Shown here: positions 49,201 to 58,200 of the stretch, in pieces | Position numbering within the stretch: the stretch's first letter is position 1 | How the letters are laid out: each line of letters begins with the position of its first letter | From: Gadus chalcogrammus | Taxonomy: Eukaryota; Chordata; Actinopteri; Gadiformes; Gadidae | Reading direction: 5' to 3' | Length of the DNA stretch: 64,000 bases | Assembly: GCF_026213295.1 (NCBI RefSeq) | Contig: NC_079423.1 | Location: forward strand, 16,724,096 to 16,788,095 | Position numbers and translations under genes: made by a program | Notes under the pieces: generated by a model | The model's database searches: none | What the model was told of the DNA's origin: nothing | Seen by the model: only the letters and a program-made list of their open reading frames with translations

Positions 49201-52200
49201 ACTTGTTATGTGGTTTACACATTAATATGGGAGGACTGGACACACACACGCACACACACGCGAGAAGGAGGGGCTCGGCCCGCCAACTAACGTGCAGAGA
49301 TGCAGGGGCAGCTTCGCGCTTCATAACAGAGACAGGGCAGAGCGCGAGCGCGCAGGGGGAATTTTATGAATGGTGAATGTAGGAGATAACTTCACCTGCT
49401 TAGAGTATTTTATTGCAGTTATACCCAACCGGTATTTGCGAAAAATAAACACAGAAGTGAAAGATCTGTCACAAGACGATTGATACGTATCCGTGCACAT
49501 TTTTAAGTGGGTATACGCAAATCCTGGTGCGTTCCTAGTGGGTATACGGCGTATACCTGCGTATCACGTAGACTACACCACTGGTCATGCCTCTCTCTGA
49601 GCATGGAGGGCCCGGGCGCGAATTTATGAATCCTACTATGCCCTCGCCAAGACCCGCCCTACTCTGTCTGTGATTGGCCGGGATGCATGCAACTCAACTG
49701 GACGCTTTAGAACTCTACGCTACCCTCGCTGTGAGCATTCGAGAGCGTCACAAAAGCAAAAATGATCGCAAGAATAACGTTCTCCACGTCCACCCCCTGG
49801 GAGCCGTGCAGAGACTCCTGGGTCCCGACCAACAAGACTACCGCTCCGCTACAGGACTACATGGAACCTTCTGCGGCGGTCCAACCCGTGATGACTCCCC
49901 TCTCAACCCCAAGGTACTTCACCTTAACCCGAACCTAAACCCTGCACTCTGGAAGTCTTCCCATTAGCAGCCAGCAGACTGTTGGAGGGGTGTGTGTGTG
50001 TGTGTGTGTGTGTGTGTGTGTGTGTGTGTGTGTGTGTGTGTGTGTGTGTGTGTGTGTGTGTGTGTGTGTGTGTGTGTGTGTGTGTGTGTGTGTGTGTGTG
50101 TGTGTGTGTGTGTCCAATTCTCAGTGGATACAATGTCAGAGAGTAAAATAGTAGAACAACATTGAATTGACATATCTGTACCTCTCAAATATTCAGCTAG
50201 CATTGTCTTAAATCTGACTTGTTAGGTTAACACATTGTTATTAACATTGACCTCAGCTTACCACAAGTGATGTAGACTTCTTTGGTGACTGTCTTTTCAA
50301 TTGCAATGGTTTTGTTATGCAGGTTATACAGTACACCAGTGCATGGGTATTTTGTGTAAGGCTCTAGCTCATCCGGCTTGTATTTCGTTGTGCCAGGGCC
50401 TGTTGGGTTGATAGATGTAAAAGTGAATCATTAGCTTTGAAGAGGAAACCTATGATACCGGTAGAGCTTTAGAATAACTGCCACTTTCAAAGCATTAATA
50501 AAGTCCTAGTAAATATTGAATTCCAAGTGAGTTCATCATTTATAAAGCAGTTATCAAAGAATAAGATATGGAAAAATAATGGTTGATAAGATCAATTATA
50601 AAGTTTAAGTTGATTTACAAACTATTTAAAATGTGGTAATAATGCGTAGTAAACACTTGATAATTCTTGATTAGTTCAGGTAGTTAGAATGCACTAGTTA
50701 AGTCTTCCCGGTGAGCTCATGGAAAGTGCGGACTCTCTATGCCTTACTAAGCATTGATCAATTACATTTAAAGGCTGGAAATGACTTAAGTACCATTGCA
50801 GCAGTACCAAGAATTAAGTTATTTAATCTAGTAAGGCATAGATGGTCCTCACTTTAGATGAGGTCACACAAAAGTCTGAACTGATGTTTTGCAAATACCT
50901 GAATTGATCAATCCAGCCCAATTGATCAATCTATAAATGCTTAGAAAGTCATAGATAGTCATAATTTTAGATAAACTCACACAAAATAAATAGTTGTCAT
51001 AACTGTAAGTAATTAACTTACGCCTTATAAATTATCTTATTAACTATTATCTCACTATCTCATTAATAACTTATGACTGATTATTAAGTGCTTACTAATA
51101 AGTATTAAGATAAGAGCAATGCTTAATAATTGATTAATTCACCATGAATTCACTATTTTCTACTACTTCATTGATGCTTCAAAGTCAAAGTGACTAATAA
51201 TATATATTCACATTTCACTAACCTTGGCAGGTGAAATTAATTCCAAGACCTTTACATTTTAAATCCTCTTGATTCTTCCAGTTGATTTCTGCTGGAAGTT
51301 TATTGGGAACTTCAAGTGTAATGTCAACGGGATTCAAGTATTCTGTTGATAAAACCATATCTTTGATGAAAAAAACGTCACAATGTGTATATATGGGAGA
51401 TAACGCCAAATGCACTGACAGATGAAGAGAAACCTGGTCAGCCCAGCAAAACATACCTAAACCGATCCATTTGGTCCAGTTCATTGGGGGATAACTGAGG
51501 GTCGTCAAATTTGTACAAAGGTCTGTGTACTTCGGTTTGATGCAGAATTCATACTTTTTGCTTGACACATCAAACTTCGCATTACTGATATTCCATTCAG
51601 TCTCGTAACAAATCTCTTCGTAGGAATCGGGTTTAATTTCTTCAATTTCATTCTGATCTGAAATATAAATATATTGCTCGTTGGTTCGTTACATAAAAAT
51701 GACACTAGCCCAAGTTCTGGAATATAGGCCTATGCCTAATTAGCTAGAAATGGTCAAGCTAAGTCCTACTTACCGATGTCATTGGTTTTCAGTTCCAGAT
51801 TCCTTCCACATGTTACTGTTAGATCTTTGCTTGGACTAATGTGAACTGTGTAAACAGTCGAAGGCTTTAGGTATTGTAGAAGATGGGTTGGGTTTGTGCC
51901 ATTCAGGGGCACAGTCACTTCGTTCGTCACTTTGTTCGATACACCGGTGATTAGTTCAGTGAGCTCGATGCTGTAGTTGCCCTCAGTGCCGTTTTCAAAG
52001 GTGAACAGAAAGCCAGTCTTATCTGCTACACCGCTGTAATTACCTGCAGATTGAGAAGAGACATAAATGATATTTAGCATCTTTCAGACCCCCTGTAGTT
52101 GGAATAACTATTGCGTAACGACACTGAGACTTACACATGGGGGGTGGAGGACCTAGGGAAAGGAAAACAAGGGTGAGGAAACAGACACTAAGTAATGGTC

Positions 52201-55200: not shown

Positions 55201-58200
55201 CCGTCGGTGTGTGAATGTTATTGGTTTTGGGTTTTTTGTGCAGAATGAAACACTGCATTACAACTTACCAGTGGGAGGCATCGGCTTTGCTGCAAATGAG
55301 GAGAGAGAGAGAGAGAGAGAGAGAGAGAGAGAGAGAGAGAGAGAGAGAGAGAGAGAGAGAGAGAGAGACATAAATGTTAGGGTATGTGAGGTAATAATTT
55401 GACTGCATTCTTGACAGTTTTTTTTGCTGCGGAAATTAAATACTGCATCACAACTCACCAGTTGGATTGTCCTGACCTAGAGATGGAGAGAGAGAGAGAA
55501 ACAGGAAGAGAAAGAGAGATTGAGAGAGACATAGATGTAATTTTTTCCACGATGAGGTTATTATTTAACTGCATGATTCTATTATATGTTCTATGTTACT
55601 CAATATTGACTATCCTAAAATGTGTTAAATCTAACACTCCCTATTTTGAGATTCCTTACAAACAAAATAAAAAAATTATAATCAACCATCAAGCAGGTCA
55701 AATACAGACTAATAATATAGACTTATTCAAAATATCAGATATCTTCCTGTGCGCAATTCTGCAGCTATTTATCTAGCGAAATGGTTATCAGAGCGAAGGC
55801 CTGATTACAAGAGGATGTGGACACTGTTGAAACTACGTAAAACTGGAGTGTTTTGCAAGTGTAGTTCTGCAAGTAGTAACAAAGTAATATGTCACTGTAC
55901 TTAAGTACAGTTTTCATGTATCTGCACGATACTTAAGTCAATTTAGAGTTCATGTGGTACTTCAACTTTTGCAAGAGTACATTTTTATCTGTTTGTACTT
56001 TTACTTCAGTACTCTGTGTGAGTACTTCCTCCAATACTGAGGAACAGAGTTTCTTTGTCGGACTAGTGACTTAGCCCTTACTGGTCAACCATCTGTGTTA
56101 CTTTCCTCTTAGTTAAGATTTCCCAACTGCTGCTATATTGAGAGATGTGTGTGTTTCATACACACATCATGTGTTACACATTGCTTCATCATACGCATTC
56201 AGACTGTTGTTCACGCTGGATTTACATGTCTTCAGGCAGACGGTTTAATAACACCGTCCTGAACGACACGCTTCATCGTCATGGCTTCTCCCTGTGTGAG
56301 GGAGACGTGTAACATAACATCCGGTTGCAAACTCTGTCACGGAGCAAGGCAAAAAGATAAAAAAAGATTTGAACACCGGGGCTGCAATGCCGTGAGTGTG
56401 AGCACATCACTTCATGTCGCTTCCTTCCCCGTTTCATTCTCTGTGTACGTTTATATTGTCGGCACGTCCATCCCATTATTAGAGCAGCACGTGGCTCAAG
56501 AGGTAGAGCGGGCTGGCTGGTAACCGGAAGGTTGCTAGTTCGATCCCCGGCTCCTCCTAGCTGAGTGTCGAGGTCTTCCTGAGCAAGACATCTCCCCCAA
56601 CGCGCACCCTACGACCTGATCGCCGCCATTTGTGGTCGACACCGCCGTGAATGTGTGTATGAGGGAATGTGAGGCAATGTTGTAAAGCGCTTTGAGTGGT
56701 CACTGGTTAGGAAAAGCGCAGAATAAATGTCGACCATTTACCATTATCTCCCCGTGTGTCGCTGGGGCCTACTGGCCGCCAGTTGATATTTGTCTTCTTT
56801 ATGAGTAAGATAAAGTTCCTGATATTTTGGAATAATATTAATATTAAACGGTTTTCAAATTCAGAAGTAATAAACGTATTGTTCGTTTGAGGAACATTCA
56901 CATCTCTGTTCCTCACTGCCTCGCCTGCAGTTCTGAACTTTGTTCTTGGGAACCCGGTTATTATATATTGGTATGTCATATTAGTTCATCACATCATGTA
57001 TTTCCTTGATTTAATAATAACACGGTGGCGTTGGTGGACAACAATCGGTCCCCTTGCCACGCCTGGTTCACAAGGGTTTCTTTAGTGAATGTAGTTGGGG
57101 TGTTTTGGATTTTAATTAGCTGTGGTTTGGATAGGTTGGGGAAGCACTGCACTAGAGAGCGTATTTACGAATCGGCTCGCAACACGGTCGGACGATGCAG
57201 ACCGTGCCTCAGTTTTAGCAGAAATAGATGTTATAACCGCAATAAAAGCACAAATGTGCCGTGATGGTTTTCTATCACAGGAAAGAAGTGAGTCGTGTTC
57301 GCTGTTCTTCTGACCAGGTTTGGAAAGAGCTCTCAGACTCCTTGGTGACGCTGTGTTATTGGGATTGACAAGACCTTGTAACTTAGACTGATAGCTGTAG
57401 GTGGGGAGACTAGCCCTCTCTGCTTGGTGAAAGCAGGTGGAGGAACTCAACTCTCCCTGCTGGGGGTAAGCAGGTGGAGAAACGTACCCCTCTCTGCTGG
57501 GTGAGAGCTACAGCAGGTGGAGAAACCGGGGCTGTTGCAAGAAGTGATGATTCTCACTGGATCTTGTGTACAGGCCGTGTGTGGTATAACCTGGTTGCTA
57601 TGGCAAATGTGCAAATACCAAGGACAATTGTTCTTTCAGAATGCTAACCACCATTTCCTGTCTGACTTGAAAAAATGAGTAAAATTGCAAAATGTTTATT
57701 TCCTTATTTTGCCCAGGTTGGCCGATTCTATGGTATAGTTACTTACTATTTCTTTATTATATATTATTTTAATCTATTTATTTTTATATAGTAGCCATTG
57801 AACAGTATTATTGTGGTTTCCGTATCATAGTAACCCTAAAGTGTTATAAATCATTCTGCATCATTTATACCAATCCCGATACATAAAGGCAATTTGCCAA
57901 AAACATAGAAACATTTTGGATCTTTATTCATTACAGTGCGAACGTGAAGAGAACGTTTTCCCCTTGTGTCTTAGACAAGGAGACGGTGCGTGACAAACGA
58001 GATACCACAGTGGCTGGGGAGGACAATGAGACTCAGGATGTGGTTAGGCTAGGCAGGCTGCATAAAAGGAGATGCATGCTCTTTTGCAATGGCATTCACT
58101 TTGTCTCGGGCCCTAAGGGCTTGTTGGGAGAAGGCTTTGAATCTGACTAATGTCAAAGATGAATTTGCCGCCAAGACCCCCCTTCCCCCCGTCTCGTAGC

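Follow-up and report, generated by a model that had tools for sequence, protein, structure and literature searches.

CD45 of the pollock Gadus chalcogrammus probably builds its variable stalk from an array of frame-neutral microexons

The CD45 gene and its microexon array

The window analysed here, 64,000 nucleotides of the Alaska pollock Gadus chalcogrammus (assembly GCF_026213295.1, contig NC_079423.1, positions 16,724,096 to 16,788,095), carries on its minus strand an intact gene for the receptor tyrosine phosphatase CD45 (PTPRC), in which an array of very short exons lies between the signal exon and the folded ectodomain. No stop interrupts the reading frame between 61881 and the terminal codon at 36835 (36835-36837), and the complete coding sequence (CDS), taken with every variable exon, comprises 4029 nt and 1342 residues. 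It starts with the signal-peptide exon (61818..61881, minus strand like all exons below; 64 nt of CDS, coding for 21 residues plus 1 nt and ending in phase 1), which also starts the annotated isoform X6. The array ends before the first folded-ectodomain exon (51774..52043; 270 nt, phase 1-1), and the remaining coding region (36835..51657) holds the rest of the ectodomain, a single transmembrane exon and two tyrosine phosphatase domains. The signal and transmembrane exons were assigned by inspection.

The first-pass annotation, made from the sequence of the window, had named the gene CD45, and the domain searches bear this out. The tandem phosphatase domains match Pfam PF00102 in two stretches with 477 bits, and the protein of isoform X6 (P0001) contains an fn3 domain (PF00041, 30.8 bits). 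The closest receptor phosphatase in the PDB, the only database ranked, is human CD45 (1ygr), with 768 bits over 610 residues of the cytoplasmic part, followed by RPTP-alpha with 504 bits, the best 60 of 246 distinct matching sequences being viewed. Both the gene model and P0001 have the active-site motif in phosphatase domain 1 and the acidic insert in domain 2, a combination that we take to be diagnostic of CD45.

The array, between 61818 and 52043, is composed of ten exons of 15-21 nt and one Ser/Thr-rich exon of 318 nt, all of them a multiple of three in length and all in phase 1-1. Each of the ten microexons has AG in front and GT(A/G)A behind, and we could place all ten where the first-pass annotation had put them. 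Three of them, e1 (55459..55476, QDNPT), e3 (54037..54054, QVNPT) and e7 (53238..53255, QTNST, with an N-glycosylation sequon), form a sequence class that we call Q. Four others form class V, namely e4 (53825..53842, LETTT, behind an 82-nt (CT)n tract), e5 (53639..53656, the same sequence as e4, with a 20-nt tract), e6 (53414..53431, LATTT, with a 64-nt tract and a tandem TAGTAG acceptor) and e8 (53093..53110, the same sequence and tandem acceptor as e6, with a 20-nt tract). All seven are 18 nt long. The other three are e2 (55269..55289; 21 nt, KPMPPT, with a 68-nt (CT)n tract immediately upstream), e9 (52939..52953; 15 nt, QSAT) and e11 (52135..52152; 18 nt, PPPPM, without a CT tract). The encoded units, which had been described as six-residue Thr/Pro-rich units, are Thr/Pro-rich but have five to seven residues, and each microexon contributes 0-3 Ser/Thr and 0-4 Pro.

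The long exon e10 (52402..52719) is mucin-like, with 58 Ser/Thr among 106 residues and seven sequons. It is present in the expected phase and has AG in front; its donor is weak (CAG|GTTGGA). Most of it is a 21-nt tandem repeat of 11.4 copies (52480-52718), and its length may therefore vary among individuals.

The use of these exons is seen in an annotated protein. When 4608 exon chains were compared with PTPRC isoform X6 (1225 aa), exactly 2 matched it letter for letter, and the choice between e4 and e5 is all that separates them. The order is signal exon, e1, e2, e3, e4 or e5, e6, e7, e9, e11, ectodomain and the rest, with e6 spliced at the upstream AG of its tandem acceptor, so that this exon starts at 53434 and adds a Val. 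X6 thus includes eight microexons, and e8, the 318-nt e10 and one of the twins e4 and e5 are absent from it. Without transcripts, a gene finder is unlikely to have placed eight exons as short as 15-21 nt, and that the microexons are really used is close to certain. The label X6 suggests further isoform models, and alternative splicing of the microexons is very probable.

None of the 78 possible junctions among the signal exon, the 11 variable exons and the first ectodomain exon creates a stop. The first-pass annotation had proposed up to about 2^11 in-frame isoforms; the 2048 subsets of the 11 exons yield only 1344 distinct proteins, because e4 equals e5 and e6 equals e8, or 3072 when the tandem acceptors of e6 and e8 are counted in, and each figure presumes that every exon may be skipped independently. 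Overall, we give a probability of about 0.8 to the reading that the variable stalk of CD45 in this fish is an array of skippable, frame-neutral microexons.

A strict scan for microexons (pyrimidine-rich acceptor, 12-30 nt in a multiple of three, phase 1 without stop, GTRRG donor) found 10 matches between 55600 and 52100, against a mean of 0.09 and a maximum of 2 in 300 Markov-1 simulations. Eight of these matches are microexons of the array, the other two are acceptor variants that are 3 nt longer, and e4 and e9 fail the rule. Over the entire minus strand there are 12 matches, against a mean of 1.04 and a maximum of 4 in 100 simulations, and outside the array the 64 kb contain two matches per strand. 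Since most copies are duplicates of one another, these matches are not independent, and the annotated protein weighs more.

A 21-nt minisatellite in intron 1 (59221-59911) was considered as an extra mucin exon and rejected on inspection, as it lacks a pyrimidine-rich acceptor and the donor on its right does not fit the phase of the cassette. Two of its three frames are open across the pure array, one of them rich in Ser, Thr and Gly. Its best rotation agrees with the e10 repeat at 11 of 21 positions (shuffle P 0.046), which we do not count as kinship. Downstream of ptprc, a coding exon of an alpha/beta hydrolase (31369-32283, plus strand, PF00561) resembles ABHD8.

Copies of the unit within and beyond the array

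Sequence comparison points to a tandem origin of the units. The exons differ at 3-5 of 18 nt within class Q, at 0-1 within class V and at 5-7 between the classes. The introns group differently: the first 95 nt behind e1, e3, e4, e5 and e7 show 2-10 pairwise differences at 90-95 sites, the introns behind e6 and e8 show one difference at 87 sites, and the two groups are separated by 21-26 differences at 78-90 sites. The identical exons e4 and e5, with two differences at 95 downstream sites, thus join a V-class exon to a Q-type intron, so that repetition of a Q-V pair does not by itself describe the array; these two look like single-exon copies or recombinants.

Behind its donor, e2 has the same 32 of 32 nt as e6 and e8, and about 30 nt further on a duplicated block of 1.44 kb begins. 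The two copies of this block, at about 54040-55215 and 55460-56650, agree at 93-97% of positions in five ungapped stretches; one of them includes e1 and the other e3, and by eye they contain an element like a short interspersed element (SINE). A similar SINE-like element, also recognised by eye, seems to lie in the opposite orientation near 37220-37360. Their similarity shows that e1 to e8 belong to a copied unit in which a Q-class exon is followed by a V-class exon, each behind a CT-rich tract. Judged in the same way, e9 and e11 stand apart from this unit.

We also compared change in exons and flanks for ten pairs, without correction for their number. The exons differ more than the flanks for e1/e7 (5/18 versus 0/44, P 0.0013) and for e2 against e6 or e8 (7/18 versus 0/32 downstream, P 0.0003), yet for the latter 6 of 11 upstream positions differ as well. 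The remaining pairs give P 0.07 (e1/e3 and e3/e7), 0.76 (e2/e4) and 1.0 (e4/e5 and e6/e8), and e4/e6 and e4/e8 run in the opposite direction, with 1/18 in the exon versus 8/44 in the flank (P 0.26). We make no claim of faster change in the exons.

The first-pass annotation had called for a comparison with related fishes. The same kind of units occurs, in other sets, in annotated proteins of three further gadid species. In G. morhua, protein P0002 has five units (QVNPN, GQVTPT, VKPTTPT, GQVNPT and DQSTT) followed by a mucin segment, P0004 has ten units and the mucin segment, and P0050, like its sister model P0051, combines a single unit with the mucin segment. Boreogadus saida P0003 has ten units and no mucin segment, and Arctogadus glacialis P0052 has eight units. 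A counterpart of e10 is found in P0002 and P0004. The e11-type unit is the last unit in P0003 and P0052 and sits, uncounted, after the mucin segment in P0002, P0004 and P0050. Together with P0001, the proteins P0002, P0003, P0004, P0050 and P0052 contain 42 units of 4-7 residues, delimited by hand, with 25 distinct bodies, and 36 of the 42 end in Thr. That the sets are unlike among close relatives makes the array seem quick to turn over, although the choice of isoform explains part of the differences.

Among the 54 homologous proteins compared by eye, the array is confined to gadids; outside this family the comparison was of proteins only, which carry no exon borders. Some other fishes have short sequences of their own in this region. 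Salmonid CD45 models (P0010-P0012 versus P0014-P0023) differ in a seven-residue block after the signal peptide, DGDKTSE and its variants, which would fit an optional 21-nt exon and which occurs in O. mykiss, O. nerka and O. kisutch. Two different segments follow the block in O. mykiss, and the CD45 models of O. keta and O. tshawytscha are without it. The alewife Alosa pseudoharengus (P0029) has a short APKPT repeat directly after the signal peptide, and in the annotated N-terminus of Muraenolepis orangiensis P0047 a series of RLTLKHG-like repeats may be a mucin-type tandem repeat in another frame.

Within the 629.9-Mb assembly, the unit is matched beyond its CT tract only at CD45 and at one site 0.48 Mb away on the same contig, 40 of 419 candidates being scored; the other matches among those scored cover only query positions 115-191, which are essentially the CT tract. 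The second site is a CD45-like gene (C12:16294676-16300077) with three array units, followed by exons that correspond to ectodomain exons 5 to 8 and then by a transmembrane exon unlike that of CD45 and by tail exons. Its tail matches G. morhua P0004 and has a YENL motif, and P0004, itself CD45-like, has no phosphatase domain according to Pfam. The 30 kb examined at this locus contained nothing recognisable as a counterpart of ectodomain exons 1 to 4. One of the three units has 19 nt, one base too many, and no AG in front, indicating that copies can decay. This broken unit adjoins a 100-N gap just upstream of the first visible unit, and a sequence error is possible.

CT tracts, splice sites and the choice of exons

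Nine (CT)n tracts of 16-82 nt, with the pyrimidines on the coding strand, are interleaved with the microexons (52761..55368) and represent 9 of the 19 tracts of at least 16 nt in the window. In the 150 nt upstream of the exon, the hexamers CUCUCU and UCUCUC number 14, 63, 14, 77, 27, 83, 19, 15 and 11 for e1 to e9, so that 11-83 hexamers lie beside each of these exons, and 60 for e10. Upstream of e11 and the 25 later exons they number 0-3, and downstream of e1 to e10 they number 0-55. Splice sites, scored with position weights, average 5.7 bits at the donors of the ten microexons versus 3.1 bits at those of 24 other exons (P 0.001), and 5.5 versus 3.1 bits at the acceptors (P 0.045). The higher donor mean is due to e1 to e8, whose donors are strong and nearly equal (6.5-6.6 bits). 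The hexamer counts and the scores refer to an initial gene model in which the edges of ec3 and ec7 are incorrect and ec8 is missing.

A passage in PMC8812845 states that CUCUCU is bound by each RNA-binding domain of PTBP1 and that PTBP1 represses the N1 exon of c-Src. This precedent, the upstream CUCUCU and the strong donors lead us to propose, tentatively and at somewhat less than even odds, that a PTB-type repressor may restrain the inclusion of the microexons at the tracts; such motifs lie beside e1 to e9, and e11 has none. Strong donors would make the very short exons e1 to e8 recognisable, and competition between U2AF and the repressor at the CT tract would decide the choice of exons, which is the least certain step; the level of PTB or the length of the tract would then set inclusion. 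The pattern of X6 does not support the simple idea that the length of its tract predicts whether an exon is used.

The tracts may instead be strong polypyrimidine tracts and little else, with control exerted by factors of the hnRNP L/LL type, an account to which we attach somewhat less than even probability. According to a passage in PMC4730250, hnRNP L, hnRNPLL and PSF control exons 4-6 of mammalian Ptprc through an exonic motif. An 18-nt exon probably leaves scant room for such a motif, however, and it is the density of CUCUCU upstream that sets e1 to e10 apart from the rest of the gene.

A further question is how freely the exons are combined. They could be real and yet come together in a small number of fixed combinations under co-ordinated splicing, the array then serving as a length device with few states rather than a combinatorial one. 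X6 includes eight of ten microexons, the sequence cluster of this pollock protein has only two members, and the donors of e1 to e8 hardly differ, all of which would suit such a device. We consider it rather unlikely, as X6 omits e8 and one of e4 and e5 while keeping their neighbours, and as the G. morhua proteins P0004 and P0002 belong to clusters of 48 and 11 members. These clusters, known by the number of their members and not by the differences among them, would fit many isoforms. The chances that many combinations are expressed in lymphocytes seem to us evenly balanced.

The number of copies could also be a product of the assembly, if units that are nearly alike and (CT)n tracts of great length were expanded or collapsed in it. 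The identity of the exons of e4 and e5 and of e6 and e8, with two differences at 95 and one at 87 downstream sites, and the 100-N gap at the second array make this conceivable, but the twins have tracts of unlike length (82 versus 20 nt, and 64 versus 20 nt) and e1, e2, e3, e7, e9 and e11 are mutually distinct, which renders it improbable. Scarcely credible is the notion that most copies are inert intronic repeats, exon-like through recent copying and with one or two in use, since for all the youth of the closest copies and the broken unit beside the gap at the second locus, where the sequence may be in error, eight of ten units occur in one annotated isoform, all ten units of CD45 retain intact splice sites and an intact frame, and such units appear in annotated proteins of other gadids.

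Returning to the reading that the stalk is an array of skippable microexons with tract-linked control, several observations weigh against it. X6 is an annotation model from the same assembly, and exon use is known here from annotation and not from RNA reads. The closest copies are young, with the 2/95 and 1/87 downstream differences given above, so that their intactness says little about function. Neither Arctogadus P0053 nor P0047 of Muraenolepis, a gadiform of more distant kinship, has an array at the annotated N-terminus. The donors of e9 (3.3 bits) and e11 (1.2 bits) are not strong, the acceptors of e4 (1.0 bits) and e5 (2.6 bits) are weak, and the later exon d2d has 23 CUCUCU/UCUCUC hexamers, on its downstream side. 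The length of the tract does not sort exon use in X6, which includes e2 (68 nt) and e6 (64 nt) but not e8 (20 nt) or e10 (64 nt). Codfish genomes are, moreover, rich in dinucleotide repeats, which a passage in PMC5241972 puts at 5.7% of a cod assembly, and the tracts may thus be tolerated, being passive rather than regulatory.

Known systems and a stalk changing in small steps

The exons 4, 5 and 6 (RA, RB and RC) of mammalian CD45 are cassette exons with O-glycosylation sites and are controlled by hnRNP L, hnRNPLL and PSF, as a passage in PMC4730250 describes. Pollock and mammals thus have in common that variable extracellular cassette exons of the same gene set the isoforms, whereas mammals use three larger exons and the pollock ten of 15-21 nt and one of 318 nt. 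The mammalian variable exons have the same phase and the same position after the signal peptide as those in pollock. In calling this a different architecture, the first-pass annotation was right about the contrast with mammals, but a precedent in fish has to be added. Kountikov et al. reportedly described in 2004 a catfish CD45 with thirteen alternatively spliced exons, and in 2010 are said to have reported that catfish CD45 isoforms change with the state of activation, works that PMC7844397 and PMC11426453 list among their references. Catfish and pollock share a CD45 whose alternative exons far outnumber the three of mammals, a comparison made by title, which does not include exon sizes or origins. 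For Atlantic salmon CD45, a passage in PMC6362898 gives seven transcript variants with three alternatively spliced exons. Many-exon splicing of CD45 in fish is already reported.

Microexons are otherwise known mostly from neurons and schistosomes. The schistosome micro-exon genes (MEGs) reportedly described by DeMarco et al. in 2010 are said to carry, after an exon for the signal peptide, series of short symmetric exons and to produce variants by skipping. In MEGs the microexons make up most of the coding sequence, whereas in pollock CD45 they account for 180 of 4029 nt inside a large receptor phosphatase, which places the gene outside the MEG definition. The N1 exon of c-src has 18 nt, the length of most pollock microexons, and its repression by PTBP1 has a possible parallel in these exons, which lie behind CUCUCU tracts; N1 differs in being a single exon under neuronal control. 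Our literature search, which covered the top-ranked matches and few subscription papers, found no report of a microexon array in gadid CD45. As far as the searches reach, the microexon grain, the tandem origin, the tract-linked layout and the turnover are new.

Each unit would add or remove five to seven Thr/Pro-rich residues at the outer tip of CD45, and the choice of exons would thereby change the length of the stalk and its sugar load in small steps. A stepwise O-glycan load, as the first-pass annotation had suggested, is plausible from the composition of the units; e7 contributes one N-glycosylation sequon, and e10 contributes its 58 Ser/Thr and seven sequons. Stalk length and sugar load may in turn govern the exclusion of CD45 from close cell contacts, or shielding. 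A bolder picture, which we think quite improbable, is that codfish CD45 is a combinatorial receptor with an unstable microexon array, each microexon being tuned by a fast-mutating CT microsatellite, that would produce thousands of stalks and glycan patterns specific to cell types or individuals, together with an array on a sister receptor with a YENL tail and no phosphatase that would be a competitor of CD45 at those contacts.

In mammals, CD45 isoforms serve as markers of T and B cells and tune these cells, and the reason why their size matters is still argued, with contact exclusion by size, lectin binding and dimerisation under discussion. If the array works as proposed, a stalk that changes in steps of about six residues, with arrays that are unlike in close relatives, would make this question testable by dose. 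Codfishes have lost MHC class II, as stated in a passage of PMC5894186. In these fishes, the array would be a case of microexons that multiply in an immune receptor of a vertebrate, the copied unit including microsatellites.

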